Shown here in pieces: positions 3,775-48,756 of a stretch of 64,000 bases of DNA (position 1 is its first letter; the number at the start of each line of letters is the position of its first letter). The notes beneath the pieces are model-generated. The model did no database searches. It saw only the letters and a list, made by a program, of their open reading frames with translations, and was not told the origin of the DNA. Source of the stretch: Hyaloraphidium curvatum (Eukaryota; Monoblepharomycota; Hyaloraphidiomycetes; Hyaloraphidiales; Hyaloraphidiaceae); assembly GCA_025558095.1 (NCBI GenBank), contig JAIVFI010000009.1, positions 434,001-498,000 of the forward strand, read 5' to 3'. The position numbers and the translations under genes are program-made.

Positions 3775-4075
3775 TCCATGGTGGTCAACCAGATTCTGTC
3801 TGTGGCAAGGTGATGCGTTCCATGATGTGCTGATTTGAATTGATGATGGCTGTGTTGTTCTATGAGCTTTGCAGTAGATTAGACATGATAAACGGCTTGC
3901 CCACCAGATCATGCCCCCAAATGTGGAGATAGACTTGGGGGCATTAGTGTTTTCTGTGGTGCTGGGAAGGCGGCAAAGACGCCAGTGCAGGGCAAGATCA
4001 GGGAAATCAATGCCCAAAAGTTCAAGGATCCGGCGAACGTGACAAACTGCACTTCTGGAGGATGTGTGACATGGA
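3775..4075. other. TOR 3' flank with a LINE 3' fragment
   Basis: No gene is seen. From about 3990 the sequence matches the 3' coding part of the LINE copy near 7950-8010 (shared stretch encoding REINAQK followed by a Lys-Leu-His-Phe-Trp-like segment), with small indels. This is a short LINE relic just downstream of TOR. Confidence 0.6.
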
Positions 4076-4116
4076 CCTTTGGCCACATTTGCACCACATG
4101 GCTCTGATGAGCATGA
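4075..4116 (+). repeat. 42-bp direct repeat, left copy (right copy 6345-6386)
   Basis: Positions 4075-4116 and 6345-6386 are identical by eye and bracket the copia fragment and its 3' LTR. At 42 bp this is far longer than a normal LTR-retrotransposon target-site duplication. Parts of it resemble LINE coding sequence, so it probably marks a recombination or template-switch junction, not a simple insertion. Confidence 0.7.
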
Positions 4117-6121: not shown

Positions 6122-6345
6122 TGTTGGAATGGATCGTTGCTACGATTCTGTATCAATAGGGAGTCTATTGGCGTGTGGGGATACTTGGGTACAACCGGAG
6201 GGGTCATCTAGGGACTTGTCATCGCAAGGGAATGGACAACGGGTCAACGTGAAACTGTCCCTCTCCCCATCCCGTCCATCTGAGTTCTGACCCGGTTCAG
6301 ACCACTGGGGCTACGTCTTCCCCACGCCCCATAGCCACTCCAACA
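6122..6345 (+). mobile_element. 3' LTR of the copia element
   Basis: The sequence begins TGTTGGAATGG and ends ACTCCAACA, giving the TG...CA ends with short inverted repeats usual for LTRs. It lies immediately after a GAGGGGGAA polypurine tract and 48 bp after the pol stop. About 150 bp of its left part recurs at 9520 and 11256 with few changes. Confidence 0.88.
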
Positions 6346-8471
6346 CCTTTGGCCACATTTGCACCACATGGCTCTGATGAGCATGACCATCAAAGCCAGC
6401 CTCAAGCGACCGCCGCGAAAGAGAACAAGTTGCGTGGCAAACACGTGCCCTGTTTCCTCCACTTCCTCGCACTCATGCAAAATCTCTGGGACGAGGCGTG
6501 GGTGAAGGAGTCCATGCAGGAGTACGTGCAGATGGAGGCTGGCTTGGACAAGTGCAATCAGCTGATTCACATCATGGTGGCGGTGAACAAGGTGGCATTC
6601 ATGGAGAAGGAGGAGTGGAAGAGGGAGTGCCAAGGGAAGGCACGAGAGCTGGAGAAGGAGAGGAATGAAGAAGCTGGAGAAGAAGATGCGGAAGGTCGTG
6701 GAGCACAAGAACTCTGAGCTGCTGGAACGACTCTTCAGGCGAGAGCCCAAGGGATACTACCAACTGCTTGGGAAGACTTACGGGAGGCGGAAGGGCAACC
6801 CTGTGCAAATTGCGGAGCTGGTACGCCACATGGAGATGGTGGCCAGCGCCGAATACGTGACCAAGATCGAGGAAGACCCCAGGCTCACGTTCCCACCGCT
6901 CCCCAAGGCCACGATCACGCCTCCTGGGAACCTGCTGCGCCCCATCACCCTCAAGGAGCTCGAGAAGGTCCTGAAGAAGGCTCCTAACGGCAGGGCAGCG
7001 GATGAGGATGGGATCAGGCTCGAGTTCGTCAAGTACGGGAGCACTGTGCTGAAGCAAGCTGTTGTCGATCTGCTCAACGACGTACTCAATCGGGTCGACG
7101 TGCAAGACTGGGGCCAGACACTGCTGGTGATGCTGCACAAGAAGGGGCCCAAGAACGTGGCTGGCAACTATCGGGGCATCATCAGCATAGAGAGGACACT
7201 GGAGAAGGTCTTCTCCCTGGTCTGGAACGCTCGGCTAGCTCCCTGGGCTGAGTGCAACAAGCTGCTGGAAGGCTCGCAGTTTGCATTCCGGGCACGGAGG
7301 TCGAGCGTAGCCTTCATGCAGTATTCCTCCCTAAGGCGCTCTTCTCCTTGGCCAAGGCACGTACGTAAGGAGAAGCTGATCATGGTGTTTGTAGATTTCA
7401 TAAAGGCTTTTGACACGGTGGAGCACCCGAGGCTGTGGAGGAAGCTGGAGGAGATGGTTGTACCCAAACAGGTTGTTGATATGTTCGAGATGGCGTTTGG
7501 GCGGGTGTGAGGAAGGCTCCGGGATGAGGATGGCACCAAGTCGGACTTCATCAAGTTCCTAACTGGAGTGAAGCAGGGGGAACCCCCTCTCCGCGCTCTT
7601 CTTCACCTTGTTCATCAACGACATCACTGCTTTCATGGAGGCCAATGGTGCAAAAGGGATGGATCTGGGCATGGTGTTCGAGGACTGGCTTGTCTATATG
7701 CGATCCTCGCGAGAACCCTCTTGCAGTTCATGACCATGAGTCGGCTCTCAAGTTCCTTATGCGCATCAAACAGCTGCCCTGCATTGTACCTGCTCTACAA
7801 GGAGCTCAAGATCGAGGCACTGAAGGGGTGCTGGAACTGGGCCGCCTTCCTGAGGGAACTACTTGTAAACTATGGTGGAGAGGGGGGGAGGGAGATGTGG
7901 GAGAAAGACACTTTTTCATGGGCCAAGGAGACTGTGGAGAATCTTGTGAAGAGCAAGTTCAGGGAGATCAATGCCCAGAAGCTCAAGGACAACGACAAGC
8001 TGCACTTCTGGAGGACATGACCTTGGTCACATTGCACCGTCGCTGATCCGGGTGGAGAAGCACCGGAGGGACGTCCAGAAGCTGCTCTGCTCTACCCACG
8101 ACCTGGAGGTGGAAACAGGCAGGCACCAAGGACTTGAGGTGCAGCAGAGGATGTGCAAACACCACCTTGAGCACATTGGAGATGAACAGCATTTTCTGTT
8201 CCACTGTTCAGCAGATGCAGAGCGACGCCAGAAACTGCAGACCAGACTGGAAGCACTGGGCCGCGAGTGGAACATGGGGACCTGGCTCTGGGCTCTTAGC
8301 ATCAAGGAGTTCGAGCCCATGATCAAGGTGAGGCAGCAGAAGGAGAAGGCCGCGCCCTCAACTCCATTGCCAGCTTCATCTCAAAGTCCAATGCATGAAG
8401 GACAGAAAACGGGGAAAATGAAAAAGATGCACGACGACCAACTTCAAATTAGCAGCAAACTGATGGCGTAA
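6346..8471 (+). pseudogene. Decayed LINE (endonuclease/RT type), copy A
   Basis: Begins directly after the copia LTR, inside what is the C-terminal endonuclease/linker region in copy B. Reading frames change several times. RT motifs are visible in the 6665-7510 frame (KAPNGRAADEDG, LLVMLHKKGPKNVAGNYRGI, VFVDFIKAFDTVEHPRLW). A stop at 7508-7510 and frameshifts then break the GVKQG...PL block, and the expected YADD box reads YAIL-like near 7695. Near 8150-8220 a C-terminal zinc-knuckle-like segment (CKHHLEHIGDEQHFLFHC) is preserved in part. The copy cannot encode an active enzyme. No poly-A tail or target-site duplication was found. Confidence 0.85.
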
Positions 8472-8513
8472 CAGCGGCCAAGCCAGGGGCAGGTCCGGGT
8501 CACCAATACTATT

Positions 8514-8909
8514 CTATGTGTTGTAATCCCCAAATATCTCAACTTGCAAATCGGGCCTCTCGTGGGGTGGGGCCGGGCCGTCAGCAAAGAACCCGCTGAA
8601 GGTACTGTTTACCGCATAGGCTGCCGTGAGCTTCTGCAGGCACGCCGTGTGCAGCCCCGGGCCGAGACAGGAGAGGTCCAAGCGCCCTGCTCCCGGCTGC
8701 ATGAGCACAGCAACCTCCTTGGCGTCGACCTTGATAGAGTAATAGTCCTCGGGTGACTCGATTTCGGCGGCCAGGGACTCACCCTGGAAGCGGGATTCAA
8801 GTTAGACCCCCCGCATGCAAAGGCGAGGCCGCCCCAAGGTCTCCACGGTCCACCCTCCCACGTATGTGGGGAGCATCTCGGCCTGAGCAGACGCAGCCAG
8901 GGCCGCCAT
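8514..8909 (-). CDS. Small two-exon protein with an N-terminal Ala-rich, signal-like segment
   Basis: Exon 1 (8909-8862) encodes 16 residues, MAALAASAQAEMLPTY, with an AxA-type cleavage look. The intron is 8861-8784 (donor GTGGGA, acceptor CTTCCAG). Exon 2 (8783-8514) encodes 89 residues beginning GESLAAEIESPEDYYSIKV and ending VEIFGDYNT. Phase 0 is kept across the intron. The frame stays open upstream of the chosen ATG, so the N-terminus may be longer. An Ala-rich stretch before AQA-E could be an export or thylakoid-lumen type signal, but this is a guess. I do not recognise the family. The gene sits alone among retroelements. Confidence 0.45.
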
Positions 8910-9034
8910 CGACAGCGCAGGGCCACCATCGACAGCGCCAGGCTGATCAACGAATGCATCCGTCGTAGTGACAACGTTTTGTAAATCTTGGGACGGAGCA
9001 GGGACGCGCGAGAGTCATCAGGTCGGGCCGCCAA

Positions 9035-9514
9035 CCCCTACTGTTGACCCCCATTGAATCACCCTTGCAGCGCGGTCTATGGAAACTGAACCCACAGTTG
9101 GAACACTGGCCGTCAAAGTATGGCGAGACGCGTCTTTCACTTTGCTGTTGTGACGGACGGCTCGTCTGGTCTCTAGTTGGACTGGACGTGAGGATGCCGT
9201 GGCCCTGGTGTGGGAAATTCCGTCACGTTGTGATTGGTGTCGGGACCGCTTCCCTACGAGCTGCTGGCTAAAGCAGCCCCGTCACAACAGAAACTCATCA
9301 AAGCGGTTCATCAGTGACAGCATCATCGTGAGCTCGAGGAGCGCCGCAGCTCTGTGTTTCGAAAACTAGAATCCGCTCCTCCAGGTATGGTGGAGGCGGC
9401 GTTGCGTCCCATCCGTGACTGAGCGGCCGGCCCAATAATTGCATCAGCTGCTCCCTCAACCCCACTAATCCCAGTCCAGGCAGCTCAGAGAACGTCCACC
9501 ATTGTTGCCGCCGG
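9035..9514. other. No recognisable gene
   Basis: Only short frames without known motifs are present between the small minus-strand gene and the solo LTR. Confidence 0.5.
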
Positions 9515-9519
9515 CTGCC

Positions 9520-9790
9520 TGTTGGAATGGATTGTTGCTACGATTCTATCTCAATAGGGAGTCTATTGGCGTGTGGGGATACTTGGGTACGACCGGAGGG
9601 GTCATCTAGGGACTTGTCATCACAAGGAAATGGACAACGGGTCAACGTGAAACTGTCCCTCTCCCCATCCCGTCCATCTGATCTTCGAGTTTCCACGGTC
9701 GATTGTGCTCCCTGGCACTCCTCATTGGCGTTCCGTCCGGCCGTGCCGTCAGACATATCCCAACAACGTAGCAATGCATAGGTTCCAACA
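9520..9790 (+). mobile_element. Solo LTR with 5-bp target-site duplication
   Basis: A 271-bp unit starts TGTTGGAATGG and ends GGTTCCAACA. CTGCC occurs directly before it (9515-9519) and directly after it (9791-9795), the 5-bp duplication expected for copia integration. No internal region is attached, so this is a solo LTR left by recombination. Its left 150 bp match the LTR at 6122, while its right 110 bp differ, marking a different subfamily. Confidence 0.88.
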
Positions 9791-9795
9791 CTGCC

Positions 9796-11255
9796 ACCAT
9801 GTTTAGTTGGCCCGTGTGTGCGGATCGACAGTATCAGTTGCACGGGTGCACACACGGCCGCCCTTGAGAGCCCCATGCTGGTGAATGAGGTATTCAGTGA
9901 CAAAACTAACACTCGTGAATCGGTTGGGTAGCAACGCAGTGAATGCATAGATACGGGTCGGCCAGGTGCCGGATCGTTGGCTGGCCCAACATCCCTTTTG
10001 ACAACATAACGAGTGTAACGGAGTTATGGTCAAAAGGTTAGTGGAAATTATACCGGGGCCAAAATCTCTCAGAATGAGGACACTTTGAGGAAAACCGCCG
10101 TTTCTCGTCGAGCTTTGCCAAACGGCGCCCGGCCCCCGTTCCAACTGCCATTTTATTGTCACGGCATGGCTCTCTGGGGTCGCTTTTGGGGGCGCGGGCC
10201 CGTAGGGGGGCGAAGGACTATGGGGCCTCGGTCCGCCAGCGTCGCCGACCCTCGAATTCCGTCGAATCGCGGCCGGAGTCCCTTCGAATCGCTTTTTTGA
10301 TGTGCAATCGTGGTTGTTGTGGGTTGCTTTGGGCTCCGCGATGGCATGGTGTGGTTGGTGGACGGGCGAGGGAGCCACGCGTTCGCGCGGCGCCGCGGTT
10401 GCACTTGCCGCCTTCCTAGACACCTGGTCACGGGCAGTTCGCTGCTTCTGCTATAGAACCACGTCTTGGAGAAGCGGGAATCGTGCCCCGAAGGAATTGA
10501 GGGCGGGAGAACGCGCCGGAGATGCGCGGGGACCCCGGTCCCGAAGACATCGCCGCGTTCCCCGCGCACCACAGAGATGGCCTTCTATTCGCGCGGGCTG
10601 GCGCATGCAAATGAGAGAAGTGCATTCACCTTGTGGTCGTGGCGCTCACAAGGCCGGGAGGCCGTTCTTCCGGTCCCCGTTTGCGGCCGGACCATGCATG
10701 CCAAGGGGCCCATACCCTTGCTGGCCGGTCCGCCGGCCACTCTCCTGCCACCGCGATGCTTCCATGGCTCAATTACCTATTGAATAAAGCGCGGCCAGTG
10801 CGCAAACAGCAAGCTCGAATGGCAAAATGGAAACCCTGGCACAATTTGGCCGGTCAACTCTGCCCGCCCCCACCTTCCCCGCTTTGCACTGGGACAAACG
10901 CCGCCTCGCGATAAAAGCTTGCCCTGACTGCCTGCAATGATTGATGTGGGCCGTGATTCGAGACGTGTTGGAGAGGGGCAGTTTCCGGCAGCAGGGACAG
11001 TATGAGCCGGGCCTAGGGCTTTAAATCGCCGCACAAGTGGTTCAATCTCACAGGACTCGGAAGGCCCGAAGTAGAGTTAGTTGTAGCCGGGGTTTGACTT
11101 GGAGATTCGCTTGAGGAAGACTTGTCTCCCGAGGGGGACATCTCAGAAGGATCAGACTTGATGGATTCGGACCGTGCCGAAGATAAAAACCGCACGGCGA
11201 GGACGAATGTAAACACTGACGAACTGTGGTGAAACCACTTGGCAGTACATTTGGT
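9796..11255. other. No recognisable gene
   Basis: GC-rich sequence with overlapping short frames on both strands, none with a recognisable domain, conserved splice pattern or transit peptide. It is probably intergenic or decayed repeat sequence. Confidence 0.5.
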
Positions 11256-11467
11256 TGTTGGAATGGATTGTTGCTACGATTCTGTATCAATAGGGAGTCT
11301 ATTGGCGTGTGGGGATACTTGGGTACGACCGGAGGGGTCATCTAGGGACTTGTCATCACAAGGGAATGGACAACGGGTCAACGTGAAACTGTCCCTCTCC
11401 CCATCCCGTCCATCTGAGTTCAGACCCGGTTCAGACCACTGGGGCTACGTCTTCCCCACGCCCCATA
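11256..11467 (+). mobile_element. LTR fragment of the same copia family, truncated at the right end
   Basis: It begins TGTTGGAATGG and matches 6122-6333 almost throughout, then stops at CCCCATAGC, losing the terminal CACTCCAACA. LINE endonuclease sequence follows almost at once, so here too an LTR abuts a LINE. Confidence 0.85.
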
Positions 11468-13545
11468 GCGCGGCTAGGAAAGCGAGACTCGGACATGCCT
11501 CAAGATACTGTACCAAAACGTCGAGCGGAAGCTCGAGAAGAGCCTCTTTATACGTGAGCTGCTGCTACACATTGTAGAGTACGATATCGTCGTTTTCGCT
11601 GAAGCAAGGTGGACGGGCAAAGGCGAGAAGCGGACTTGGGAGGAGCATATGAGCAACAACGACATCCGCGCAGAGGTTGCCGCGGTACTGGAAACGTTCG
11701 AGGTTTATGAGAAGAGCTGCTCGGAGCATGGTGGAGGAGGGTTGACGGTCTTTGTGCGAAAGGAGCTACCGCACACCGTACGGACAGACTTGGACCCGAT
11801 CCTGGACGTCGTACAGATCCAAATCGGCGGAGTGAACGTGCTGGGGGCGTACATACCGCCGACGCCAACGCAGGACATAGTCACGCAGGACGAGATGTGG
11901 TCGAGGTTCTCAGGGATTGTGGCTGGGTGCGACATGCCGATCGTGATCGGGGACCTGAACGCACAATTGGGGATAAGCGAGGCAAACAGCGACGTGCGTG
12001 GCACGAGCTTCGGAAAGCGTGTAATCCGGTCGGAGCAGCGCACGGATCAGAGGGGGAAACAGCTACTTGCACTGTGCCACGAGGAGGAGCTGGTGATCCT
12101 GAATGGGCGCCTCGAGCCGGGGGCAACAACTCGCGCAGGAAAGGATGGCGAGCGGGACAGCACCTTGGACTACGCAATCGTGCCGCAGAGCTGCTACGGG
12201 ACGGTCACCCAGCTTACATTTGTGAAGGAAGGCTGGGTCGTCACCTCAGACCACATGGCCCTGAGCCTGACCATCAAGGCCAACCTCGTGCGACCAGCTG
12301 CGAAGGAGAACAAGCCGCACTGCAAGCCCGTGCCGTGCGACTTCCACTTCCTCGCAATAATGCGAAACCTCTACGACGAGCCCTGGGTCAAGGAGGCAAT
12401 GCAAGAGTACGAGCAACTTCAAGCTGGATCCGACAAGTGCAACCGGCTCATCCAGATCATGGCAGCGGTGAACAAGGTCGCGAAGAAGAAGTACGACAAG
12501 GTCAGCGTACACGAAGAGGCGGACAAGTTCCTCAACGGCTTTGCGGACTCGGCAGAGAGGGCCGAGATCGATCGGAAGCTGTCACGCACGCCTTCTTGAG
12601 CTGCGATCCCTCATGGAGAAGGACGAGTGGAAGAAGGAGTACCAGGGGAAGACGCGGGAGCTGGAGAAGGAGCGGAAGAAGTTGGAGAAGAGGATGCGGA
12701 GGGTTGCTGAGCGAGAGAACTCCAAGCTGCTAGAGCGACTCTTCAGGCGAGAGCCTAAGGGGTACTACCAGCTGCTTGGAAAGGCTCACGCAAGGCGCAA
12801 GGGCAACCCCGTGCCCTTTGCAGAGCTGGTGCGCCACATGGAGATGGTCGCCAGCGCCGAGTACGTGACCAAGATCGAGGAGGATCCAAGGCTCACGTTT
12901 CCACCACTTCCCAAGGCTACGATCACGCCTTCTGGAGACCTGCTGCGCCCCATCACCCTCAAGGAGCTGGAGAGGGTCTTGAAGAAGGCCCCCAACGGCA
13001 AGGCAAAGGACGAGGATGGGATCCGGCTCGAGTTCGTCAAGTACGGGACTGCAGTACTGAAGCAAGCTGTTGTCAACCTCCTCAACGACGTGCTCAATGG
13101 CGTCAAGATGGATGACTGGGGCCAGACACTGCTGGTGATGCTGCACAAGAAGGGGCCCAAGAACGTGGCTGGCAACTACCGAGGCATCAGCATAGAGAGG
13201 ATGCTGGAGAAGGTCTTCTCCCTGGTCTGGAACGCTCCGCTAGCTCCCTGGGCTGAGTGCAACAAGCTGTTGGAAGGCTCGCAGTTTGGATTCCGTGCAC
13301 GGAGATCGAACCTTCATGCAGTGTTCCTTGCCGAGGCACTCTTCTCCCTGGCCAAGGCACGCAAGGAGAAGCTGATCATGGTCTTTGTAGATTTCACAAA
13401 GGCTTTTGACACGGTGGAGCGCCCCAGGTTATGGCAGAAGCTGGAGGAGATGGGTGTACCCAAACAGGTTGTTGACATGTTCGAGATGGCGTTCGGGCGC
13501 GTGTGGGGACGGCTCCGGGATGAAGACGGGCTAGCAATTACCTAG
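11468..13545 (+). pseudogene. LINE copy B: apurinic-type endonuclease and partial RT
   Basis: The endonuclease reads from about 11490 (YQNV near the start, EYDIVVFAEARW, GDLNAQLG, STLDYAIV, TSDHMALS) to a stop at 12599; these are the N, E, D and SDH motifs of the exonuclease-endonuclease-phosphatase fold. The RT follows in another frame (12541-13545): coiled EKDEWKKEYQG region, LLVMLHKKGPKNVAGNYRGIS, GSQFGFRARRS, MVFVDFTKAFDTVERPRLW. It ends within the RT palm, before the YxDD box, where unrelated sequence begins. It is better preserved than copy A but is 3'-truncated and frameshifted. Confidence 0.88.
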
Positions 13546-14554
13546 GGAAGCGGGTCTTAGAAGGGGGGAATAACACAACAAACACCAGGAACGCCACTGC
13601 CTCATCCGCACCTGTCTCTGGGCGCCTGTGACCAGGGGTCTTTCATTTCTTCCTCTGTGAAACATGTGGAAATAGATGGTGGACCCGGGACCCGCATCTC
13701 ATCTCAAAAGTGTCAGAGTGCAGGGATTGACTGTGGACTGCATAGGCGCCTCTTCGTTCGGTTGCGGCCACCCGGGCCGCCGATCCTTGCCGCCCAGCAC
13801 TGCGCGAAAATTCGCATGACCGTGGCCAATGGGATACGCTGCATGACTTCCACATGAGTGCATGACTATCGAGCTGTCACACGCGGCAAAGCAGGCAGGG
13901 CGCCCGAGGGCGGCAATCAGCAGCCAAACCGGTGCTGCCCGCCGGCGTTTCGGGTTGCGCGTCGGGAAGCTTGTCAGCTGTCGCGCTGTGCAGGCGCAGA
14001 CACGATCAAAGCTTGTGCTGGTCCTCCCATCTCCTCACGGCTATGCAATGCATGAAGAATGAGCCCGTTCTCGGCAACCTGAGCATAGCTCTTCAGATAT
14101 CCCTTGAGCACTCGGGCAGGACGTTGGCTATGGGTGACACTGGCTCTTGCGACCACCCCCGTAGCATTGCCATCTGGCCTTGCGGGAAAGCCGGTTGAGG
14201 GCAATGATCGTTGTGGGCCTGATTTGCTCCGAGAACCGTCGACGTAATGGACTTTTGGACACCGGCCATCTCAGACGTTCTGGTGTGACGTCAGAAACCT
14301 AGCAGACATCCTGCACTCGGGGGCTTGGAAGGGGATCAGAACCCACGTCGGCGAACAGAAAAGTGCATAAAGCGGTCCGCTGGGGTGTTGTGCACCGGGA
14401 CAGGATGAGATCCAGGCTGACCGTGAACACCGTGGGATCCGGAGCTTGGCCGTCCCCATACTGTGTAAGGCCATGCTCGTGGAGCAAGACGGAGATCAGA
14501 CAAGGGAGTATCGGTGGACTTCAAATCCTCCGCCGGACTGTCCGAGACCCTTGA
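13546..14554. other. No recognisable gene
   Basis: Short frames only, without recognisable motifs, between the LINE and the tandem repeat. Confidence 0.5.
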
Positions 14555-14977
14555 ATCATCGCGTCGTGCCGGAGGAGCGCCGATCTGGGCGGCGGTGCGG
14601 GGAGCGGGGGCCGGGCGCCCGGAGGGCGGCCGCAGGGGCCACATGGTGCGCAGACCGGCGTCTAAGGAATCTCTGAATGCCCTTTGGCGAAGTGGATCAT
14701 CGCGTCGTGCCGGAGGAGCGCCGATCTGGGCGGCGGTGCGGGGAGCGGGGGCCGGGCGCCCGGAGGGCGGCCGCAGGGGCCACATGGTGCGCAGACCGGC
14801 GTCTAAGGAATCTCTGAATGCCCTTTGGCGAAGTGGATCATCGCGTCGTGCCGGAGGAGCGCCGATCTGGGCGGCGGTGCGGGGAGCGGGGGCCGGGCGC
14901 CCGGAGGGCGGCCGCAGGGGCGACATGGTGCACAGACCGGCGTCTAAGGAATCTTACTGAAAGCCCTTTGGCGAAGT
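14555..14977 (+). repeat. 141-bp tandem repeat, three copies
   Basis: Units start at 14555, 14696 and 14837 (period 141 bp), nearly identical through ATCATCGCGTCGTGCCGG ... CTTTGGCGAAGTGG. Because 141 is a multiple of three, frames stay open across all units on both strands, giving 47-residue repeats that need not be protein. The end of each unit (CCCTTTGGCGAAGTGGAT) matches the 5' part of the adjacent tRNA-Arg-like sequence, so the repeat seems tRNA-derived. Confidence 0.9.
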
Positions 14978-15034
14978 GGATATCGCGTCTGCCTCCGGAG
15001 CAGAAGGTCCCAGGTTCGACCCCTGGATGGGTCG
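14962..15034 (+). tRNA. tRNA-Arg(CCG)-like sequence, imperfect acceptor stem
   Basis: D stem GCGA/TCGC, anticodon stem TCTGC/GCAGA with loop CTCCGGA (anticodon CCG), T stem CCAGG/CCTGG with loop TTCGACC and 3' acceptor strand ATGGGTC all fold. The 5' acceptor strand AGCCCTT pairs poorly: one A-C and one T-T mismatch plus a G-T pair. Since the 5' half is shared with the 141-bp repeat, it may be a tRNA whose head was copied into, or replaced by, the repeat. Functionality is uncertain. Confidence 0.6.
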
Positions 15035-15349: not shown

Positions 15350-16690
15350 TCGGGGTGTGATCGAGATCGAAACCGTCGGGTACGCTAGCTCGCGACGCAA
15401 CTCCGGACGTTGCATTGCGAGCGCGTCTCCCGGGCCGTCACAAAATCCAATCTCTGCACCGGTGCTGCGCCCCCCACGGACCAATGAAATGTCCAGAAGC
15501 GCGTTGGAGTGGTCACTTGCACCTCCGGAGCAGGATTTGCTATCCCAGCCCCCCAGGGGGCGGGGCACCGCGGAACCGCCCGACGCAACCCGCAAGGGGC
15601 AGAGCGTCGAATGCCGACGAAACCACGACTCAACTATGTCTTAATCCTCGCTGATGAGACCGAAATTGTGATGGAACTTCCCGATTCATTCATGTTGCGT
15701 CTTTGGAGGGAGCTTTGGCGGAACCGAACCGCAGTGCCAAGTCGGGTCCGGGGAGCCCGTGGAGCCTCGGCCAACGACACCACAGCACTCATGCAATGTG
15801 TCTTGACCAAAAAATGGGCCTTCCAGAGGTGCATCGGATGCCCGGCACCCGTCCAACGGTTTCCGGATTCCCGTTGTCGAAGGACGCCATTCGCGCCCAT
15901 GCGCGTCGGGAAAGCTCCTCCATCGCCAGCAGTATCTTCATAAGCACCGAATCAAACAGTCTCGCGCAACGGGAGCCACCTCCTGGCGGCGGGAATGCCA
16001 TCCACCTCGGGCCCGCGATGACTGTGCGGGTGGCGCCGGAGCAACTCGGCCAGCGACGCGGTCGGACGCAAACGGAGCACTCGGCGACGGCGACGGCACA
16101 TGATGCTGTCGTTTCCGCGCCCCGCCCGGGCCCCGTCGCTCTCCGTGGGCGGCGCAGCAGGGCCGCGAATTGGGTCGCCCCGAAGGCCCCGGGGCCCGGC
16201 CCCCGGCGGCGAACTCGGCGCCTCCCGCCGGCCAGGGGCGTTTTGAGCACCCAGAATCACCATTGCGGCAGGGAGGCACGGCGGCACCGCCCTCGCGTGT
16301 GTGGAGTATGACTTGTGCTACGATCGCGATCGTCGCACGCATACACTTCGAAGACTGGCGCTACACCGGTCCCGGGGCGACCTGCTGGCCGCCGCTCTGC
16401 GGCTCTGAAAATCCCCGCGGACGCGCATCTCGAGGCGGCGGCCCTTTTCCCGGCCCTCGCTCGGCCCCGCTCGAGCTTTTCGGCGCCCCAGCGGCGACCT
16501 GGACCTGGGTCTCGCAGCGCGCTGGCCGCGGCCTCCTGCGCGCGTTGGGCGGTGCCAAAAGCACTTTAGAAGTCGGGAAGACGATGCGGGCGTCGGGAGG
16601 TGGCGCCGGCCCACCCGGCGGAGGCGTTCCCCCGCGGAAGGCCCCCATGTTCAGTGGGTGCCCTTGCTCCCTCGTCCTGCCGAATCCCTG
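15350..16690 (+). repeat. Upstream block of the SIM/PIP gene, copy 1 (second copy 20280-21605)
   Basis: Homologous to 20280-21605. The outer part (15350-15870) is diverged, while about 15880-16600 is almost identical to 20790-21520, with only scattered single-base changes. Both copies directly precede the first recognisable exon of the repeated gene, so the block probably carries its promoter and 5' exon. It contains open frames but no known domain. Confidence 0.85.
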
Positions 16691-16694
16691 ACGC

Positions 16695-19600
16695 AGTGCG
16701 GCCCATTCAAGCCATTGATTTGACTCTGGACAGCGACGAGGACGGAGAGGCCGTCTCCGCGCCGGGATCTGCTCAAGTCGGTCCGTCGTTCAACGACGCC
16801 GTCGATCCTCGTCCCACGGTTCGTCTTCGTGCCCTCGCCGGTAGGATTGCGTCGCTGACAACTCGTTTCCAAAGGCCCGGCCTGTGCAGGAGGTCGTCTC
16901 GGCCCCAGCAAAGCGCATGCACGAGAATGCGTCATCAGGTTGGGCGGCCGGACCGCCGTGATCTTTCCCCGCTGACCATTCCACGCAGAAGCGATCAACC
17001 ACAAGATCTCGAAGTCCGTGCCGGATGTCCAGCTGGGAGCCACCTCTCCCAAGTCGAAAAAGGTTGGTCGAGGAACGCCTCCACTTTGCCTCCCCACCCG
17101 AGCTCATCGCTGTCCCTCTCCAGCCGCGGACTGATACCGCGCGTCTTCCTTCTTACGGCTCGACTTCTTTGTCCAAGGATCTCTTTGGATCCGGCAACAA
17201 GTCCGGCTCAAGTGCGTGTTTGCCGCGATCGGCGCTCTCGGACGCATCTGACGCCTCCATGTATTGCAGCCGATCTTCCGATCAACATCTACCAGTATTT
17301 CCTCGCGACGATGGAGCAGTACGCCAAGGAGGCAGCGATCCCCTACGAACGGCTGCAGGCCGGCATCTGCGTCCTCGCACAGCTCGGCGCGATCAAGCAC
17401 ATCGACCTCACCCCCGGCAAGGAGCACCTCGTCCTGGACCGGGCCAAGGTCCACGAGGCGGGCGCGCATTGCCTCGATTGCCTCTACGCAAAAGATTTCT
17501 TTGAGCACGGGGTCAAGTTTGCGCTGGTGAAACCGTCCGGGGACGACCTCAAGTTCCCATCCGACGTCCGCCTTCACCCGTACATGGGGACCGCCGAGGA
17601 TCTGGTGCAACGGAACAAGGACGCCCTCCACGGAAAGCTCAAGCTGTACGGCGAGATGGCGGAGTGCCATTGCCTCGGGCACGGCATCGGCTCGCCCGCG
17701 CTGAACAACCCCGCGGAAGAGGCGCTCATCTTCATCGTCAAACTCGCTGTGGGATCCCACGCCGGGAACTCCAGCCCGTACTCCAAGATTCCGTTTTTTC
17801 CGCGCCCGGCGAAGAATGCCGAACTGGACATTCTGCGGACGATGCGTGCCAAGCTCTTTGTATCCGCATACAACTCCCCGCCTTTTCTCGCGCTCAACAG
17901 CGGCGCCGACTGCTCGGCCGTGCGAAACCCCGGACAGCCTCACGAGGGCTACCTGAGTCGTTCCTTCGCCACGAACAATGAGCTCATGGGGCACCAGCCT
18001 CCGCTCGCTCTGAACGAGTACCCTAAGATTCCCTGCCCCCAGCTCCCAACGGCGCATATCTCCATTGCCGACCAGAAAGCCGCGAAGCGCGACTTTTTCG
18101 CCAAGCTCGAGCCGTACCCGGACGTTCTGGGCCTCCTCTTCTTCGGCGACCGCCCGACCGAGATCGTTTCAATCGTCTCGGCTCCAGGGTGGGGCAACGA
18201 GACCTGGATGGGCAAGCCCCGGTTCGCCACCGTGACGCTGGATGAGCTGCGGAGTCGCTCCTTCTTTGCCGCCGCTTTTCTCGACACAGCGATCGTCGGC
18301 TACGCCCAAGGCGCGGCTCGCGTCCTTGCGCTTGGTTACTTCTTCGAGTTGGACAGGTGCACGATCGAGCTCACGGACTACATCCTGCGCATGCGGAAGC
18401 TCTTCGGCGTCCAAGAGGTGCTCAATAAGGCCCGCACGATGTGGGACGAGTCGCTCGGGCCCCGGATGCTCCAGCGCGCCGAGGCCCTCAGGCCTGTGTG
18501 GAACGTTCCCAAGGGAGGCGGTGCCGGTGAGCACATCGCGATCGATGCCTCGAGGGTCTCGGCTGATCGCCGCGCCATTCGCAGAGCTCCACCAAGGCTT
18601 GTCGGCAGACGAGTCCGTCGCTCCCAACGGCCTGCCGGACTACAAGGTCGACCTCTCCTCGCTGCGCCCGGACTTCGAAGCTACCTTCGCGGACTGGAAG
18701 CAGTATCACGGCTGCGATGCGAACGTGGCAGTCGACCAAAGCTCGCTCCGGATCGACGACGAGGCGGACGAAGATCTGAGCAACGCTGAGCGTCTCGATC
18801 GGGAGGCGTCGCTGAGAGCTGCGGAACTCCTCACGGACTTGACTTTCTCGGATGCCGAGGTCGTCAGGAAGGCTGTGCTGGTGCAGAGCACGGGGATCGC
18901 CCGTGCCGCGAAGGAGAAGGCTGCCGATCGTGCGGAGCGGTCTTCCCGCACGGAGCTGCGCCACATGGCGTTCCAGACAGTCGAGGACTACGACAACCTT
19001 CCCGAGGCGGAACAGGAGGCCGTCTTGGGGCGGATGAAGGCAACGAGAGGCATGGAGCGGCTGCGGAGGCTCGAGGTTGGCATAGTCAAGTTTGCTGCGG
19101 AGCTCGGCCTATTGCCCGAGAAGCTGCCCGATCTGGCCAAGCTCGACGAGCCCACTCTCCGGAAGCTGATCGACATTGCGACCATGAAGCTTAATCGGTA
19201 CCGCCAGCTGAAGCCGTACTCGGACTTTGCGATCCTTGCGCACTGTCTCGTCTGCCGCAAAGACTACTGCAAAGAGTTTCGCCGCAACGTCGAGGACTCC
19301 GAGGAGAACGAGAAAACGCCGCATCCGAAAGCAGGCGGCTGCACTGCGAAGAAGCTCACGATGGGATGGACTGCTCTTCCTTCCTACCCCGGCATCGAAA
19401 GCCTCGAACCCCTCATCAACGTCTTCATCGCGTTCATGGATGCCGAGGCCCTGAAGCGCCCCGATCGGATCCTTGTGATCAACCTCGCGCAGGTCGCCAC
19501 CAGCTTCGCTATGCTGGTACGCGACTACGAGGCTCAGGGCCATGCTCAGGCCGTCTACCTCGCCGACAAGTACAAGCTCATCATGGAGTTCTATGTCAAG

Positions 19601-19963
19601 CAGCAGTCGCTTGTCGACTGGCTCGGGGACTCGGACGAGGCCGTGGCGCAGAAGAAGGCGCTCAAGAACGGCTTCATCGAGGGGCTGAAGGAAGGCCTCG
19701 ACCGTGCGGGCCGCTGCGCCGTTGCGAGCCGCGTGCCGCAGCCTCTTGAGAGCGACTCCAAGTCGCTTTCTATTTATGCGTTCGGCTCCCTGAAGACGCA
19801 GCGTTCGGCGGCGCAGTACGAGGAGCTCGAGGACCGCACCTACTTGAACTATGCCGCAGTGGTCAACGCGCGCAAGATGACGGATAACGCCGTGAGCAAG
19901 AAGCGGGGCGAGCGGCGCAAGGCGGGCAACCAGGCCATCGACCGCTTCCTGGTCAAGAAGTAG
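16695..19963 (+). CDS. Repeated gene of unknown family with SIM-like N-terminus and PIP-like C-terminus, copy 1
   Basis: Exons: SIM exon to 16818, 16875-16938, 16989-17062, 17124-17211, 17270-18526 and 18585-19963. Introns are 56, 50, 61, 58 and 58 nt with GT...AG ends, several with CTGAC or CTGAT before the acceptor. The frame continues over all of them to about 1,000 codons; the first exon's start is unresolved. Seen: IDLTLDSDEDGE at 16714-16749, which resembles PIAS-type SUMO-interacting motifs; a basic AKR segment; SPKSKK; a long conserved central region (NIYQYFLATMEQYAKEA to NVPKGGGAG); CX2CX4C followed by PHP and GGC near 19240-19350, a possible zinc site; and the C-terminus NQAIDRFLVKK, a weak PIP-box-like motif. 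Copy 2 (61103-64000) shares the visible splice sites. I recognise no transposase, polymerase or nuclease domain. It could be a mobile-element gene or a host multigene family; nuclear action is inferred from the motifs. Confidence 0.75.
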
Positions 19964-20132: not shown

Positions 20133-20279
20133 ACAGCCGGCCGGAGGCGGCGCTACCGCCGCTCGCGCGCACGTCCGCAGGGCAAAGTTGAAAATCCAGG
20201 ATTTCAAATCTGCGGAATACCATCCCGTTGCTAGTCCCTGCGTGCGATTGTGCGGACGGGATCTGGAACTGCTTTTACG

Positions 20280-21605
20280 CTCGTGAGGCAACCTACGACA
20301 GTGCCTCTCGAGCGTCTCTCCGCCCCCCCCCCCCGTTCGCAAACTCCATCTCTGCACCGCAGCTCCGCCGAGGACACTTCCCACGGACCAATGAAATGCC
20401 CAGAAGCACGTTGGAAGCTCCACTCGCACATCCGGGGCAGGATGCGGTCTGCCCGCCGCCTCGTTGGAAAGGAGCGCGGAACCGCCCAACGTGGACGAGG
20501 CCGGGACCCGCTGAGCGGTCGATCGACGAACGCCGACCTGAATCGCGATCAATCGCCTCTTCTTCGCTCGCTGACGCCCTCGGAGACGCGCTGGAGGGAC
20601 CCGATTCGTTCTGTTCCGCCTTTGAGGGAGCGTGTGCTGGACCCCGATGGTAACTCGTCCGGCGAGCCATCAGAGCCTCAATGAGCGACCTTCCAGCGCT
20701 CATGAAATGTGCCTCGAAACCAGAAATGAGCTCCCAGAGATGCTTCGCGCTTCATGAGCCCGGCCATAGGTTTCCGGATTCCCCTTGTCGAAGGACGCCC
20801 TTCGCGCCCATGCGCGTCGGGAAAGCTCCTCCATCGCCAGCAGCATATTCATAAGCACCGAATCAAACGGTCTCGCGCGACGGGAGCCACCTCCTGGCGG
20901 CGGGAATGCCATCCACCTCGGGCCCGCGATGACTGTGCGGGTGGCGCCGGAGCAACTCGGCCAGCGACGCGGTCGGACGCAAACGGAGCACTCGGCGACG
21001 GCGACGGCACATGATGCTGTCGTTTCCGCGCCCCGCCCGGGCCCCGTCGCTCTCCGTGGGCGGCGCAGCAGGGCCGCGAATTGGGTCGCCCCGAAGGCCC
21101 CGGGGCCCGGCCCCCGGCGGCGAACTCGGCGCCTCCCGCCGGCCAGGGGCGTTTTGAGCACCCAGAATCACCATTGCGGCAGGGAGGCACGGCGGCACCG
21201 CCCTCGCGTGTGTGGACTATGACTTGTGCTACGATCGCGATCGTCGCACGCAGACACTTCGAAGACTGGCGCTACACCGGTCCCGGGGCGACCTGCTGGC
21301 CGCCGCTCTGCGGCTCTGAAAATCCCCGTGGACGCGCATCTCGAGGCGGCGGCCCTTTTCCCGGCCCTCGCTCGGCCCCGCTCAGGCTTTTCGGCGCCCC
21401 AGCGGCGACCTGGACCTGGGTCTCGCAGCGCGCTGGCCGCGGCCTCCTGCGCGCGTTGGGCGGTGCCAAAAGCACTTTAGAAGTCGGGAAGACTATGCGG
21501 GCGTCGGGAGATGGCGCCGGGCCGCCCGGCGGAGGCGTCCCACCGCGGAAGGTCCCCATGTTCAGTAGGTGCCCTTGCTCCCTCTTCCCGGACGAATCCC
21601 TGACG
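20280..21605 (+). repeat. Upstream block of the SIM/PIP gene, copy 2
   Basis: Second copy of the block at 15350-16690, in the same orientation and about 4.9 kb downstream. It leads into the truncated gene copy at 21219-22090. The nearly identical core (20790-21520) sits between more diverged edges, suggesting sequence exchange between the copies. Confidence 0.85.
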
Positions 21606-22090
21606 CGATGCGGCTCTCTTCAAGCCATCGATCTCAGCCTGGACAGCGACGACGACGGGGAGGCCGTCACCGCGCCGGGATCTGGTCAAGTCGGTCGGTC
21701 CTCCAACGACCCCGTCGATCCTCGCCCTGCGGTTCGTTTTCCTGCCCGCGCCGGTCGAGCTGCGTTGCTGACAGCTTCTTTCTTCATGTTCAGGCTGCCC
21801 AGAATGACGTCTCGGCCCCCGCAAAGCGGAAGAGCGAAAACGCCTTGGCTGGTGGGTGGCCCGCCGTCGCGCTCTTAACACGCTGATCACCCAACGCAGA
21901 AACGAGCAACGGCAGGATTTCGAAGTCATCGCCGGATGTCCAGCTGGGAGGCAGCTCTCCCAACTCGAAAAAGGTTGGTCGAGGAACGCCTCCACTTTAT
22001 TTGCCTCCGCAGCCCGAGCTGATCGCTGTCTCTCTCCAGCCGCGGACGGACCGGCCCTTTTTTTGGCTCGGCGGAGCTGATGCGGGGTGA
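21219..22090 (+). pseudogene. Truncated 5' copy of the SIM/PIP gene (still splice-competent)
   Basis: Carries the SIM-like segment IDLSLDSDDDGE (21627-21662). The introns sit at the same sites as in copy 1: 21732-21793, 21852-21899 and 21974-22039, all GT...AG. The third coding exon (21900-21973) is 74 nt, exactly as in copy 1. Homology is lost shortly after the last of these introns, and the frame ends at 22088-22090. The upstream frame is open from at least 21219. If transcribed it would make a short SIM-bearing protein lacking the central and C-terminal regions. It is either a pseudogene or a truncated variant. Confidence 0.65.
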
Positions 22091-22243: not shown

Positions 22244-23653
22244 TCAGAGAAAGTACTCTATCGGCGGCTTCTTGGCCGGCAGACCCCGCGCCTCCTGCCG
22301 GTGGAAAGCAGTAGTGCATTAGGGGGCGCACGAAGGTCCACATGGACACACGACCGACCTGTGGGGCTGCGTCAAAGGTTATGTAGTTCGTCTTGAGGTT
22401 CTCGTCAAGCTGGAGGATGGCCGCGACGTTACCGCACCTGATCGCGCCGGCCAACGTCAGCAATCGAAGACGATACCACCGACGAAGATCGTCCACCTGT
22501 AGCAATAGTTTGGTGCCGACCAGACCGTCACGATCGTGTCGTTGAACATGGTCTTGTAGCCCTCCATCACCAGCTGGTGAGCGCGAGCGATCAAGTCCAG
22601 GTTGTTCTGCTGCGTGAACTGCAGCGGCCGCGACAGGCAGGTGAGATGGTCAAGTCTCACCACTCGGGCGTCAAGTCGACCCACTGCAGCTACCACGTCG
22701 CCGCCAAACAGGTACCCCGCACCGCGCGGGCTCAGGCCCCACCCTTCAATCTCTGCGGATATCGTCCCGATGAGATTCCGCGGGCAATACAGAATGGCAA
22801 ACCAGCCTGCCCACCGTCGGGGTCCGACCAAAGCAAGTCGCACATGGCGCCGTCGTGCGGCACCTCCTGCTTTCTGTCGATGGTGCGGATCTGGTTGCGA
22901 CCGATGCCTTTGCGTCAGCCCGCTCCGCGGGACGCAACGTGCAAGACGCGATGCCTGCCTGATCCAGGGTGTTGATGGAAGGCGACAGCCCGCCGTGGAC
23001 ACAGAACACGCGGTCGTCCACGATGGCCGACAAGCTCAGGTAGTCGAAGATCTCGCAGCAGTACCGCCACACATTGACCGAGCCGTACTTCCTCAAGCAC
23101 TCGTCGTAGAAACCGTAGACCTGGGTGATTTGCCTGCTCTCGTGGTTCCCTCGGACCAAGGTGATGCGGTCCGGATACCGGACCTGGGCAATGAGGAGCC
23201 GTCAGACCGAGGTCTGGACGGCCAAAAGTGAGGCGCCCACTTTCAATGCCAGCAGGAGCAGAAAGGTCTCGACGCTGTAGAAGCCGCGATCCACAAAGTC
23301 GCCTACCCCGGAAGCGGGACGGTCAGGTCTGTGGACCAAAGGCCCCGTGCCACGCCATGACAATCACCCATGAACAGGTAGTTGGTGTCGGGGCACTGAC
23401 CGCCGACCTTGAACAGTTCCTTCAGGTCGTAGAACTGTCCATGAATGTCCCCGCAGATCTGCAAGGCCCCAGCTTAGCCTAGTCCGCCTCCCAGCTCCTT
23501 GGGCCGTACGGTGACGGGAGCATCGACTCGCTGGACGTTGCTCTCCTCCAGAAGGATCTCTCGGGCCTTATGGCAAAGCTCCTTGACCTCGGCCTCCTTT
23601 ATGATTTCGCAGCGGAAGAGCTGCTCGATGATCTGGTCCAGGTCGCCCCCCAT
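22244..23653 (-). CDS. PPP4C: Protein phosphatase 4 catalytic subunit (PPP family)
   Basis: Metal-dependent Ser/Thr phosphatase of the PP2A/PP4/PP6 group. The start is ATG at 23653, giving [20 protein letters not shown] as in other PP4c proteins. Seen across short exons: [34 protein letters not shown] (phosphatase signature), [57 protein letters not shown]. Joining the last intron (acceptor CCACCGGCAG) gives [20 protein letters not shown]-stop; the YFL end is where PP2A-type enzymes are carboxymethylated. The PP4-like N-terminus and tail favour PP4 over PP2A. Exon edges in the middle were not all resolved. Confidence 0.92.
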
Positions 23654-23838
23654 GGCCGCGGCACGATGCGGCCGCTCCCGGGAGCAGCGATGCCGCTCGG
23701 TAGCTGGGCGATGCGCCTCGCGCGGTGTGAGGGCGCAGGTCCAGTGGGTCGAGAGTGAAAGTCGTCGTCTGTCCGCAGTCGTCACGACAGCCGCCCGCGC
23801 GCGGCAAACCCGATCCAGCTCATGTTGGGGGCCGAACA

Positions 23839-25085
23839 ATGTTGGCTCCGCCGCCAAAAGTGCTCTCTTCCACCGATGCCTTTGCCGGCTGCCTCGCCCT
23901 GGGGCTGAGCTTCGTCGGTTCCCTCTACGTGGGACGCCCGTCGGTTGGGCGGGCTCCGCTCCCCCGGAGCCACCCCAGCGTGATCAGACACCGCATCAAG
24001 GCGGTCATCTGCGTCTCTTTTGTTGCGCCTGCTGTACCGCTCGGCCTGCTGTATGTGCGGGGCGCGTTCGCCAATGCGAGGGTGGGAACGACAGCGCCGT
24101 CTCCGCGACGAGGGCTAAGGGCTGCTTGAGGACAGACCGCCGAGGAAGCGCTGAGGATGGCATTGCCGTGGTTTGGGTTGGCAAGAAGTAACGCGTCTAT
24201 CTGGATTGTTGCGGCCCCGGTGGCGAAAGCCGCATCGCTGTACTTGGGACCCCTGGTCGAGGCGTTACTGGACTCCTCCAGAGGGGTGTTGAGCGTGCTG
24301 CCGCGCGAGCTGCTGCCGAGCAAGGCCCCAGACCTGTTGTTCGTGAGGAACTGCGTCGTGGTCAGTGATGTGTCTTGGCAGACCGTCGGAGCCCGGCCAA
24401 TACGGTACCTCCGTGCCCGTTCCCGCCACCTTCAAGGCTCCGATTGCCGAGGAATGGGTGTTCCGCGCAAACATTATTCCGCTGTTCCTGGCCGCGGGCT
24501 TCTCGCGAGCCGCCATCGTGGCGATTGTGCCGCTGTTCTTTGGCATCGGTGAGCGAGGAAAGAACACTCCCACAAGTGATCGATCGAGCTAGTACTTGTA
24601 CAGCACATCTACATCACCTCTTGGAAGCTTTTCGAGCCCAATCCGTCACTGGGGAACGAACCAGCGTCATTCTCGCGCAGACAGGTAACTGCGTACGAGT
24701 TGGCGCGATCGATACCTTACTCATCGGCGCATCGACGCACCGTACTCATACTTGCGCGATCCAGGATTCCAGTTTGGGTACACCACCGTTTTCGGGTGCT
24801 GGTCGACGTATTGGCTGCTTCGCACCGGTACGCGGTTCGCCGTAGGCTCGGCAGCGCTTTCGACCGAGCAGTTCGCTTCCTAGGGAACATAGGCGCCATC
24901 ATCTGCTGCCACGCGATCTGCAACTACATGGGATTCCCGCAGGTCGCGATTTCCGGAACGGAAACACCCTTGTGGAAGAAGGGTACGCATGCGTCGCTGG
25001 GCTTGGCTGATGAGTCTCACCGTGATCTGCAGCCCTCTTGGCAGCTTCGTACCTCGTTGGTATGGTGTCGTTCTTCAGCGCCTGA
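23839..25085 (+). CDS. RCE1: CAAX prenyl protease 2 (RCE1/CPBP family)
   Basis: ER-membrane glutamate protease that removes the -AAX tripeptide from prenylated proteins. The exon near 24430 encodes [21 protein letters not shown], containing the catalytic EExxxR motif. A short intron (donor GTGAGC near 24549) leads to [16 protein letters not shown] with the conserved His, and a later exon gives [21 protein letters not shown], the third motif. Removing an intron that starts GTACGC (about 24985) gives a final hydrophobic [17 protein letters not shown] and a stop at 25083-25085. Several membrane segments are seen. The start was chosen at MLAPPPK (23839), 60 bases before a hydrophobic stretch. ELP4 starts only 61 bp downstream. 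Confidence 0.87.
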
Positions 25086-29049: not shown

Positions 29050-30324
29050 CTAGACCGCCATGGGGCGGCGATGGTGCGCCTCGACCATCCGCCGCAGCCT
29101 CCACGCCGCCTCGTCCAAGTTTCGCCCGTATTTTGACGACACGGGAATCACCTCGCAACCTGCCACCCGGAACAGCTCCTCGAAGTTCGCCTTTGCAATG
29201 GGCACCACGTCCGCCTTGTTGGCAATCACCAGGCTCGGCCGCGAGACCATGTCGCGGTCGTAGGACCGGAGCTCGTCCCGGAGGAGGGCGAGGTCATCCC
29301 AGGGCCTGGCACCCGAGACGTCGACGACAAAGGCGAGGATGCTGGCCCGCTCGAGGTGCTTGAGGAACGTTCGCCCCAGCCCCACCCCGCGGTGCGCGCC
29401 CCGGATCAGGCCCGGGATGTCCACGATCTTGACCTGCGCGCTGTCCGGGTAGTCGATCGCGGCAATGTAGGGCGTGAGCGTGGTGAACGGGTAGGCAGCG
29501 ACCTTTGATTTCGCGTTGGTAACGGCGCAGATGAAGCTCGACTTGCCGGCGTTGGGCAGGCCGACGAGGCCGACGTCCGAGATGGTCTTGAAGTCCATCT
29601 CGAGCACGAACGCGTCCCCCGGATAGCCCCGTTCGCAGAACCGCGGACCGGGTATGTCCTTGGACGCGAAAAAGGTGTTGCCCCGGCCTCCGGCGCCCCC
29701 GCGCGCCGCCAGGACCGGCTCGCCTGGACGGAGGATGTCGACCGCCGTCCACTCGGTCTCGAGCCTCGCGTTTTCCTCTCGTATACGGCCCCTGACCTTG
29801 TCCCACAGCATTTTCTTCCTGTCCTCGCGCGGGAAGTAGCCTCCCGAGAGCCGCAGCCGCTCCGCCAGCCGCTCGTCGAGCTCGTCCTCGGACAGCTCGC
29901 GGAACGCGGGGGCGTCCATGGCGGGAAAGTCGGGGTCCGGCCGCCGGCGCACGGACGTGCCCAGGGGCACGGGGACGTAGACCGGACGCGGCACGGTGCC
30001 GTGCTTGTGCTGGCCCTGGCCGGCGCTGCCGGGTGCGCCGCGGTAGACGGGGCTCAGGTGGCGGAGGCACGACTCCTCGGCGGTGCCCACGAGGTACACG
30101 TGGCCGCCCACGCCGCCGCTGCCGCCGTCCGGCGGGCCCATCGGCACGCCGCGGTCCCTGTGGAAGCTCGCGCAGCCGTCGCCGCCGCGGCCGCCGAAGA
30201 CGTGCACGCGCAGCGCGTCGACGAAGCCGCGGGTCTGCTGCCGGCCCCGGCACGACAGCACCCGAGGGCGCACGATCGCGGCCCCGAGGTTTGGCAGTGC
30301 TCCGGGCGCGCCCAGCCGCAGCAT
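29050..30324 (-). CDS. Obg-family GTPase, probably mitochondrial (MTG2-like)
   Basis: Single exon of 424 residues, a ribosome-assembly GTPase. The first 35 residues ([20 protein letters not shown]...) are basic and Ala/Leu-rich, like a mitochondrial presequence. Then comes the Gly-rich Obg fold ([33 protein letters not shown]), followed by the G domain: [10 protein letters not shown] (G1), a PFTT switch (G2), [14 protein letters not shown] (G3), IANKADVV (G4) and VSSKYG (G5). It is convergent with Ran (56 bp apart) and head-to-head with KARI. Confidence 0.93.
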
Positions 30325-30421
30325 TTGAACGGAGTTGATGACTCGGTCTGCCAGCTGCCCAAGTCAACCCCTTGGCATTTGTTTACCCCTGCCTCGACGC
30401 CTGCTTTTGTCGTCTGCCACC
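30325..30421. promoter_or_regulatory. 97-bp divergent promoter region (Obg / KARI)
   Basis: Only 97 bp separate the two divergent start codons. Both products have mitochondrial-type presequences, so a shared bidirectional promoter is likely. No specific element was recognised. Confidence 0.5.
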
Positions 30422-46453: not shown

Positions 46454-47880
46454 TCTTTCTAGGGTTGCGCGTATTGGCGGCGACGGCGGGGATTTCGGTC
46501 CCCACACACAACAACACGACACCATGGGGGCATCCACGTCTTCAGTAGTCCAGCGGACCTGCCACACGTTTCTCTGTACGTTTCTTCACCAATACGTCCA
46601 GTGGACGTTCACTGATGCGATTTGGGTTTGGACGTCAGGTGATGCCTTCCCAACTCGCTGTGACTCCCCGGAATCGTCCCTACCCGTCCAAAACGCTCCA
46701 TTGGCTGCCAAACTCCTGCCGTACCCTTGAGCAAGGTTACATGCATCTGTTTCGGAGTCATTAGGAAAGATATTGATTGCACATTTTGGTTTCTCCGCTG
46801 AGGAGGGAAACTGCTAGAGGCGCCCATTGCAACTGCCACACGGTGGTCTCCAAACACTCCAGGTGTCTCTAGGCACGGGACATGGCAATCAGGTAGCGGA
46901 GAAAGAGCGTCCTTGCTCTTAGACATGCTAAGCCCTAGACGTTCGTCGCCCTCCCCCGACCTCCCTCGGCCAATCTCGCCTTGGTGCCATTCAAAACCCT
47001 GGGCGCTCCATTATCCAGTCCGCGGAGAGCTGCTGTCCCGGGGTTTGGTGACAATCAAGCGCCAGTCCTCGCCGCGCTCGTTTGCAGGCGCTTTCGCCCC
47101 GTTCTCGTCGACCAATCGACGGTCAAGATTCGGACCAGCGCAACCCTGGGAGGGAACATTGATATTCATGTGCTTCTCAAGTCTCCCCCTTGATGCAGGT
47201 TGTTGCCGACCACGATGACACCGGTGCCAGTGACCAGTTTCCGTGCCCGGCGAACCGCCTCGAAGCTCCCCCGGGCACCAATGCTGGGTCGTGGCACACG
47301 CGGGATTCAACCAGACAACTTTGGTTCATCGTTGGCTGGCCTTGGCGACGGGGATTCGCTACGGTTGAAGGTGGCCCCCCCCCTCGGCCCAGCCAGGTGG
47401 TGACGGTGCGCTTGGTTTCGGCCTCCCGGCGATCCACAATCGCTGAGGAAGGCATCGACGAGGCCGTATCCATCGGGGAACGGGATATTGCCCTTGGAGA
47501 TGGTTTCCGGGTGCCGAGCCACGGGCGAAGCCGTCATCTGGCACGGGACGTCGCGTCGCACGAAGGCATCCGGGCCAGGCGCGACGGCGTCGAATCCCGC
47601 GGCCAGGCGCCGCTGGGAAACGCGCTGAGCGGGCTCCGGCGGATATTTTTGGCCAAGCACGAGTGGAGCTGCGGGGACCACGGATTCGCTGATGGGGAGT
47701 GATTGGACGAAATGGAGATTGGCATGACGAACACGGACCTTGAAACCGTCGACTCTCGTCGCGGCACCCACACCGCGCGCGTGGTGCCGGCTCCTGCACC
47801 CCCTCGCGCACGCGCATTCCGCGCCGCACCGCGTTTTGCCAGCGTCGGCGCGGCCGGACTTGGCTCGCGGACGCCCGGCG
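46080..47880 (-). repeat. Duplicated block, copy 1 (includes MVK exons 1-2)
   Basis: 46080-47701 matches 48757-50379 almost base for base (offset 2677-2678, one 1-bp indel near 46470). Similarity continues more loosely to about 47880/50560. The block holds the first two exons of MVK, about 700 bp of upstream sequence, and frames 47177-48064 on the minus strand, Ser/Ala/Arg-rich at the start and without a recognised domain. Whether these frames are a gene is unclear. Confidence 0.9.
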
Positions 47881-48750: not shown

Positions 48751-48756
48751 AGATCA

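Follow-up and report, generated by a model that had tools for sequence, protein, structure and literature searches.

A repeated gene family of Hyaloraphidium curvatum with a SUMO-interacting-type start and a PCNA-interacting-type end

Introduction

Proteins that read SUMO and PCNA together are few, and those that are known decide, at stalled replication forks, whether recombination or damage bypass takes place. The SUMO-interacting motifs (SIMs) of the PIAS/Siz and RNF4 type have the form VIDLT with acidic residues after it. Optimal binding of Srs2 to SUMO-PCNA requires both its SIM and a degenerate PCNA-interacting motif (PMC9225081). PCNA-interacting (PIP) boxes occur also in pogo-type transposases and in LINE-1, and a coupling of movement to replication has been proposed for the pogo transposase and for LINE-1 ORF2p (PMC5371812).

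The gene family described here shares with Srs2 and human PARI the pairing of a SIM and a PCNA-interacting motif, one of the two degenerate in some members, from which recruitment to sumoylated PCNA might be supposed (PMC9225081). The parallel with Srs2 drawn in a preliminary description of this DNA holds for this recruitment logic and not for the architecture of the proteins. Srs2 and PARI possess a UvrD-type SF1 helicase domain and carry their two motifs adjacent to each other at the C-terminus, whereas in the present family no helicase domain was found, the core is unrelated to anything searched, and the motifs lie at opposite ends, the SIM-like one at residues 4-15 and the PIP-like one in the last 12 residues.

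Results and Discussion

The window analysed is a 64-kb stretch, bases 434001-498000 of contig C9; the genome searched comprises 31.9 Mb in 55 contigs. Self-comparison, with flanking DNA added, gives two DNA repeat pairs, 15388-19721 (+) with 65750-61384 (-) at 80% identity, and 20246-22050 (+) with 65783-63992 (-) at 95%. Predicted splice models yield gene A (16647-19963, +; 986 aa) and gene B (64484-61103, -; 1006 aa), the 5' end of the latter falling just beyond the window edge. Each has seven exons and six GT-AG introns of 48-71 nt at matching positions, and after predicted splicing neither contains an internal stop or a frameshift (Table 1). Both genes would be spliced in vivo as modelled. 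The start of A, earlier placed at 16695, is probably the ATG at 16647, spliced to the exon at 16712. Of the third copy, C3, only a 5' fragment is present, which is 96-100% identical to B and ends about 10 nt into exon 5; the earlier count of three copies in 64 kb, two of them intact once introns are removed, therefore stands, except that only two are full-length. C3 adjoins a multi-exon gene for the catalytic subunit of a PP2A/PP4-type phosphatase (window ~22450-23900, -; HGGLSPSI was read). Elsewhere in the window are an Obg-type GTPase (29053-30363, -) and an M50 protease that also matches PDZ weakly (33018-34187, -), with short introns and high GC.

Table 1. Positions, within the window, of the family genes and their parts
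Feature	Position	Strand	Basis or remark
Upstream module of A, ~750 bp, 95-100% identical in C3 and B	15860-16640	+	Identity comparison, genome search
A exon 1 (ATG TTC A)	16647-16653	+	Splice model; followed by 58-nt GT-AG intron; same exon in B
A exon 2, with SIM-like peptide TIDLTLDSDEDGE at 16714-16749	16712-16818	+	Splice model, SIM scan
A exon 3	16890-16938	+	Splice model
A exon 4	16989-17062	+	Splice model
A exon 5	17124-17211	+	Splice model
A exon 6: conserved core, first half, ~418 aa	17270-18526	+	Splice model, alignments
A/B high-identity tract, 91-99% within genes otherwise 53-91%	17793-18690	+	Gene conversion reading
A exon 7: second conserved half, Cys/His module, basic tail, stop	18585-19963	+	Splice model, alignments
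A candidate zinc-binding module C-x2-C-x4-C ... H-P-x4-C	19244-19342	+	Alignments
A PIP-like C-terminal motif NQAIDRFL	19928-19951	+	Splice model, shuffle test
C3: upstream module and exons 1-4 of a B-like gene	20246-22050	+	SIM-like peptide 21627-21662
B, in-window part	61103-64000	-	Exons 64002-63915 (2 bases past window), 63856-62600, 62541-61103
B canonical PIP-type motif QLSVSDFF	61118-61141	-	Splice model

Protein searches of the genome found relatives at C14:473738, C21:454693-457412 (C21a), C21:444258-445440 (C21b), C2:545160 (C2:545) and C2:618223 (C2:618), together with a short family fragment at C21:571083. Pairwise identity of these relatives with A or B is 22-31%, and that of C2:545 with C14 is 37%. 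The family loci number at least ten, are dispersed over four contigs, and are in many cases broken or truncated. C14 has an open frame of 1005 aa, with a frame change needed ahead of its C-terminal tail; C21a is interrupted by an in-frame TGA and shifts frame once; C21b has no N-terminal half; and C2:545 and its sister C2:618 are both broken within the core. Read from their sequences, only A, B and a duplicate of B look intact. The designation as a repeated gene is supported, and its two terminal motifs recur among paralogues with only ~22-31% core identity.

Some of these loci have repeats of other kinds beside them. A tandem array of 133-nt units lies directly upstream of C21a (L017:146-1366; C21:452645-453865), and an inverted repeat pair of nearly 400 nt, 82% identical, lies beside C2:618 (L053:3158-3550 and 5555-5925) and is a possible insertion. 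About 1 kb of DNA, 78-86% similar, is found 3' of both C21b (L016:1628-2639) and B (window 59818-60895); it runs opposite to the genes and is possibly a separate dispersed repeat.

The alignments are best explained by a modular protein, in which an N-terminal SIM-type motif and a poorly conserved linker precede a core of ~420 aa. After the core come a further conserved half of ~400 aa, where the candidate zinc site lies, and a basic tail that ends in a PIP-type motif. The conserved points of the family are HG-x2-K-x2-G...CLGH, GK...V-x-LDE, a CxxC with further Cys/His residues, and the C-terminal tail. In A and B the Cys/His residues take the form C-x2-C-x4-C...HP...C; the CxxC of this candidate zinc module is retained in B, C14 and C21a, and the other Cys/His residues are retained in part.

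The preliminary description had recognised no known family or catalytic domain, and profile searches agree: there was no significant match for A, B, C14 or C21a in Pfam, NCBIfam or PHROGs, nor among PDB sequences. GTDB-type prokaryotic genomes and IMG/VR viral contigs, queried with C14, A and A/B alignments, yielded no relative. Run on five family sequences, Pfam hmmscan returned fn1 alone (E 0.36-0.43). In the same aligned sequences it gave no helicase match, even at E 10, and no transposase domain; it found no SP-RING or RING either, and the CxxC...HP..C module was not recognised as a RING. AlphaFold predictions for exons 6 and 7 of A/B, from two-sequence alignments, reached pLDDT values of 34 and 43. 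The lack of a match is a statement about Pfam, NCBIfam, PHROGs, PDB sequences, prokaryotic genomes and viral contigs, and is not the same as an absence of relatives.

By the splice models, the proteins begin with MFTIDLTLDSDEDGE in A and MFTIDLSLDSDDDGD in B. A strict SIM pattern was scanned in six frames over 121.5 kb spanning all family loci, with the expectation taken from first-order simulations. Five matches were found against 0.2 expected, and all five lie on the coding strand at family 5' ends (A, C3, B and the B duplicate on C9, and C2:545). The match in the diverged C2:545 copy is FTVIDLTLNDDD / FTVIDLTLNDDDNDAAG, and C2:618 has a weakened form, VTVTDLTLDDDVDD; 5' of C14 and C21a no clear SIM was seen. 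In A, B, C3 and C2:545 the motif has [VI]DL[TS] with acidic or Ser flanks. As in the SIMs of PIAS/Siz and RNF4, a hydrophobic core, here IDLT or IDLS, is followed by D, S or E, near the N-terminus; unlike those ligases, the family has no detected SP-RING or RING, and we do not claim membership among them. An IDLT within the core of A (HIDLTPGKEH) was considered as a SIM and rejected, as PGK follows it and the paralogues have IDF, or IDL with basic residues.

At the other end, the proteins finish with NQAIDRFLVKK in A, QLSVSDFFQKKP in B and RGPLDNFIRR in C21a. The full consensus Q-x-x-[ILMV]-x-x-[FY]-[FY] is present at the C-terminus of B (QLSVSDFF), as had been reported for the second copy, and A (NQAIDRFL) and C21a (RGPLDNFI) are PIP-like with neither the glutamine nor the second aromatic residue. 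The tail of C14, QKTLSFGSEK, is weak and outside the PIP-like pattern, QKTLSFG not fitting it, and that of C21b, GPLDNVT, is broken. The end peptides, searched by themselves, had no match in the PDB. Only the C9 genes have both motifs in one gene. Since both recur in diverged paralogues, however (the SIM at C2:545 and, weakly, in C2:618; the PIP-like motif in C21a), the paralogues do not present the picture that would count against these motifs, that of relatives keeping neither.

Short motifs are weak evidence. Both ends are of disordered-type sequence and such motifs are common in proteomes, so that each could be a chance resemblance in the low-complexity ends of an uncharacterised family. 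We consider this very improbable, given that the SIM matches all have the correct place and strand, that shuffling the tails of A, B and C21a produces [ILVM][DST]xF[FLIY] within the final 12 residues with a probability of only ~0.001 per tail, and that the two motifs recur among diverged paralogues.

The two motifs might also have separate explanations. The SIM is better conserved than the PIP-like motif, the tails are rich in Lys and Arg, and A and C21a have lost the PIP glutamine. This would suit a host family with no link to replication, whose SIM targets SUMO-rich sites (silencing, STUbL bodies) and whose C-terminal motif is part of a basic NLS tail. Such a family would be less expected to retain hydrophobic-x-x-F-hydrophobic in A, B and C21a despite the divergence of the surrounding tail, or to have the full PIP consensus in B, and we regard this account as doubtful. 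Read instead as a pair, the SIM-type start and the PIP-type end suggest that the proteins may be sent to replication forks.

Because the genome encodes both PCNA and SUMO, both ligands implied by the motifs exist. PCNA is encoded at C13:232271-232670 and just downstream, and its C-terminal domain, aligned to yeast and human PCNA, places a lysine opposite K164 (VTKEGIKF, compared with ITKETIKF and CAKDGVKF in the yeast and human proteins). The SUMO gene lies in several exons on C24 near 175841, and contains KPIHINIKGG, FKIKRTTQLKKLM, RFLYEGQRLQPGQTPDE and MEDEDIIQTAVEQVGG; earlier ubiquitin-like matches were set aside as SUMO candidates, those inspected being ubiquitin and ubiquilin-like sequence.

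How have the copies on C9 evolved? Over their whole length A and B are 68% identical, with dN 0.24 and dS 0.49. Because the resulting dN/dS is 0.49, both genes are under purifying selection; the ratio is below 1 in all informative 50-codon windows, the last seven codons being the exception. Identity between them is a mosaic: 95-98% at 15860-16600, upstream of the genes, 74-91% at 16600-17790, 91-99% at 17793-18690 and 53-66% from 18693 to the stop. By codon, dS is ~0.1 in 301-550 and 0.5-2 across most of the C-terminal half. We infer gene conversion between A and B, which the mosaic indicates because two low-divergence tracts of ~0.8 kb sit in diverged surroundings. The upstream module common to A, B and C3 has no further copy anywhere in the genome, by genome search.

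B itself lies inside a tandem duplication of ~7.6 kb, in which 58552-67432 recurs as 66166-75046 (to C9:509046) at 99.99% identity. A fourth copy, near-identical to B, is thereby placed outside the window. This duplication could be very recent, or it could be an assembly artefact. Other tandem repeats in the window are three 141-nt units at 14552-15001, immediately 5' of the repeat region of A, and a 1.8-kb segment in tandem at 46071-50552 (98.7%), where a 250-nt piece occurs three times.

Do these genes belong to the host, or to a mobile element? The preliminary description allowed for both. If the proteins were transposases or other proteins of an unrecognised element, the PIP-type motif would couple its movement to replication and the SIM would hook host factors. 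The dispersal of at least ten loci over four contigs, with many broken or truncated copies, is in keeping with such an element, as is the precedent of PIP boxes in pogo-type transposases and LINE-1 (PMC5371812). Retroelements are also nearby in the window: a Copia-type reverse transcriptase frame lies at 4070-6070 (RVT_2, E 5.7e-40), and broken copies of a non-LTR retroelement at 6122-13542 (RVT_1 at 6587-7507, endonuclease at 11478-12596, and repeats of 214 nt and 300 nt). Pogo/Tigger-type transposases offer a likeness, sharing a PIP-type motif within a repeated gene family that has broken copies, but in the present family neither a transposase domain nor terminal inverted repeats were detected, and no target duplication was found.

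Several observations weigh against the element. Self-comparison of the regions around A, B, C14, C21b and C2:545 found no terminal inverted repeats, and no target duplications were found there. A 113-nt inverted repeat at C21a was examined as a terminal inverted repeat and rejected, being an inverted copy of the 3' end of the gene with no target duplication. Duplicates carry flanking DNA of varying extent, the shared upstream flank being >2.3 kb on C2, ~1.3 kb on C9 and ~0.35 kb on C21, so that there is no constant element boundary. The A/B copies at the DNA level are on one contig only, and Pfam gives no transposase domain. The mobile-element option is thus weakened. With neither terminal inverted repeats or target duplications found in the regions compared, the L053 pair beside C2:618 aside, nor a constant boundary, a locally duplicating host family is preferred, and the sequences favour segmental duplication of such a family over a transposon, an unusual element being possible though in our judgement unlikely.

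Conclusions

We propose that these are nuclear genes of the host and form a small, fast-evolving family specific to the lineage, in which the SIM and PIP ends may recruit the core to replication forks. Our probability for this reading is roughly 0.4. What can be read directly in the DNA are open gene models, coding constraint and two motifs that recur in diverged paralogues; binding, a place in the nucleus and at forks, and any catalysis by the proteins are inferred. On the best reading, a family member would be a fork-recruited adaptor or enzyme that reads PCNA and SUMO. Its N-terminal SIM and C-terminal PIP-type motif would bind SUMO and PCNA together, the SUMO being attached either to PCNA itself or to a neighbouring protein, and this two-point binding would bring the core and candidate zinc module to forks that have sumoylated PCNA or a sumoylated neighbour.

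A bolder and rather improbable version would have a new-fold, lineage-specific family that reads SUMO-PCNA through one terminal motif at each end and brings to forks an enzymatic or remodelling activity not known before. It would do so under an evolutionary conflict whose visible signs would be fast divergence, gene conversion and recurrent pseudogenisation.

Finally, if family members do read SUMO and PCNA in this way, the same recognition logic would be found with a core that is unrelated, in a lineage distant from both yeast and animals. The reading of SUMO-PCNA would then have arisen more than once, or else selfish or defensive genes may exploit it.
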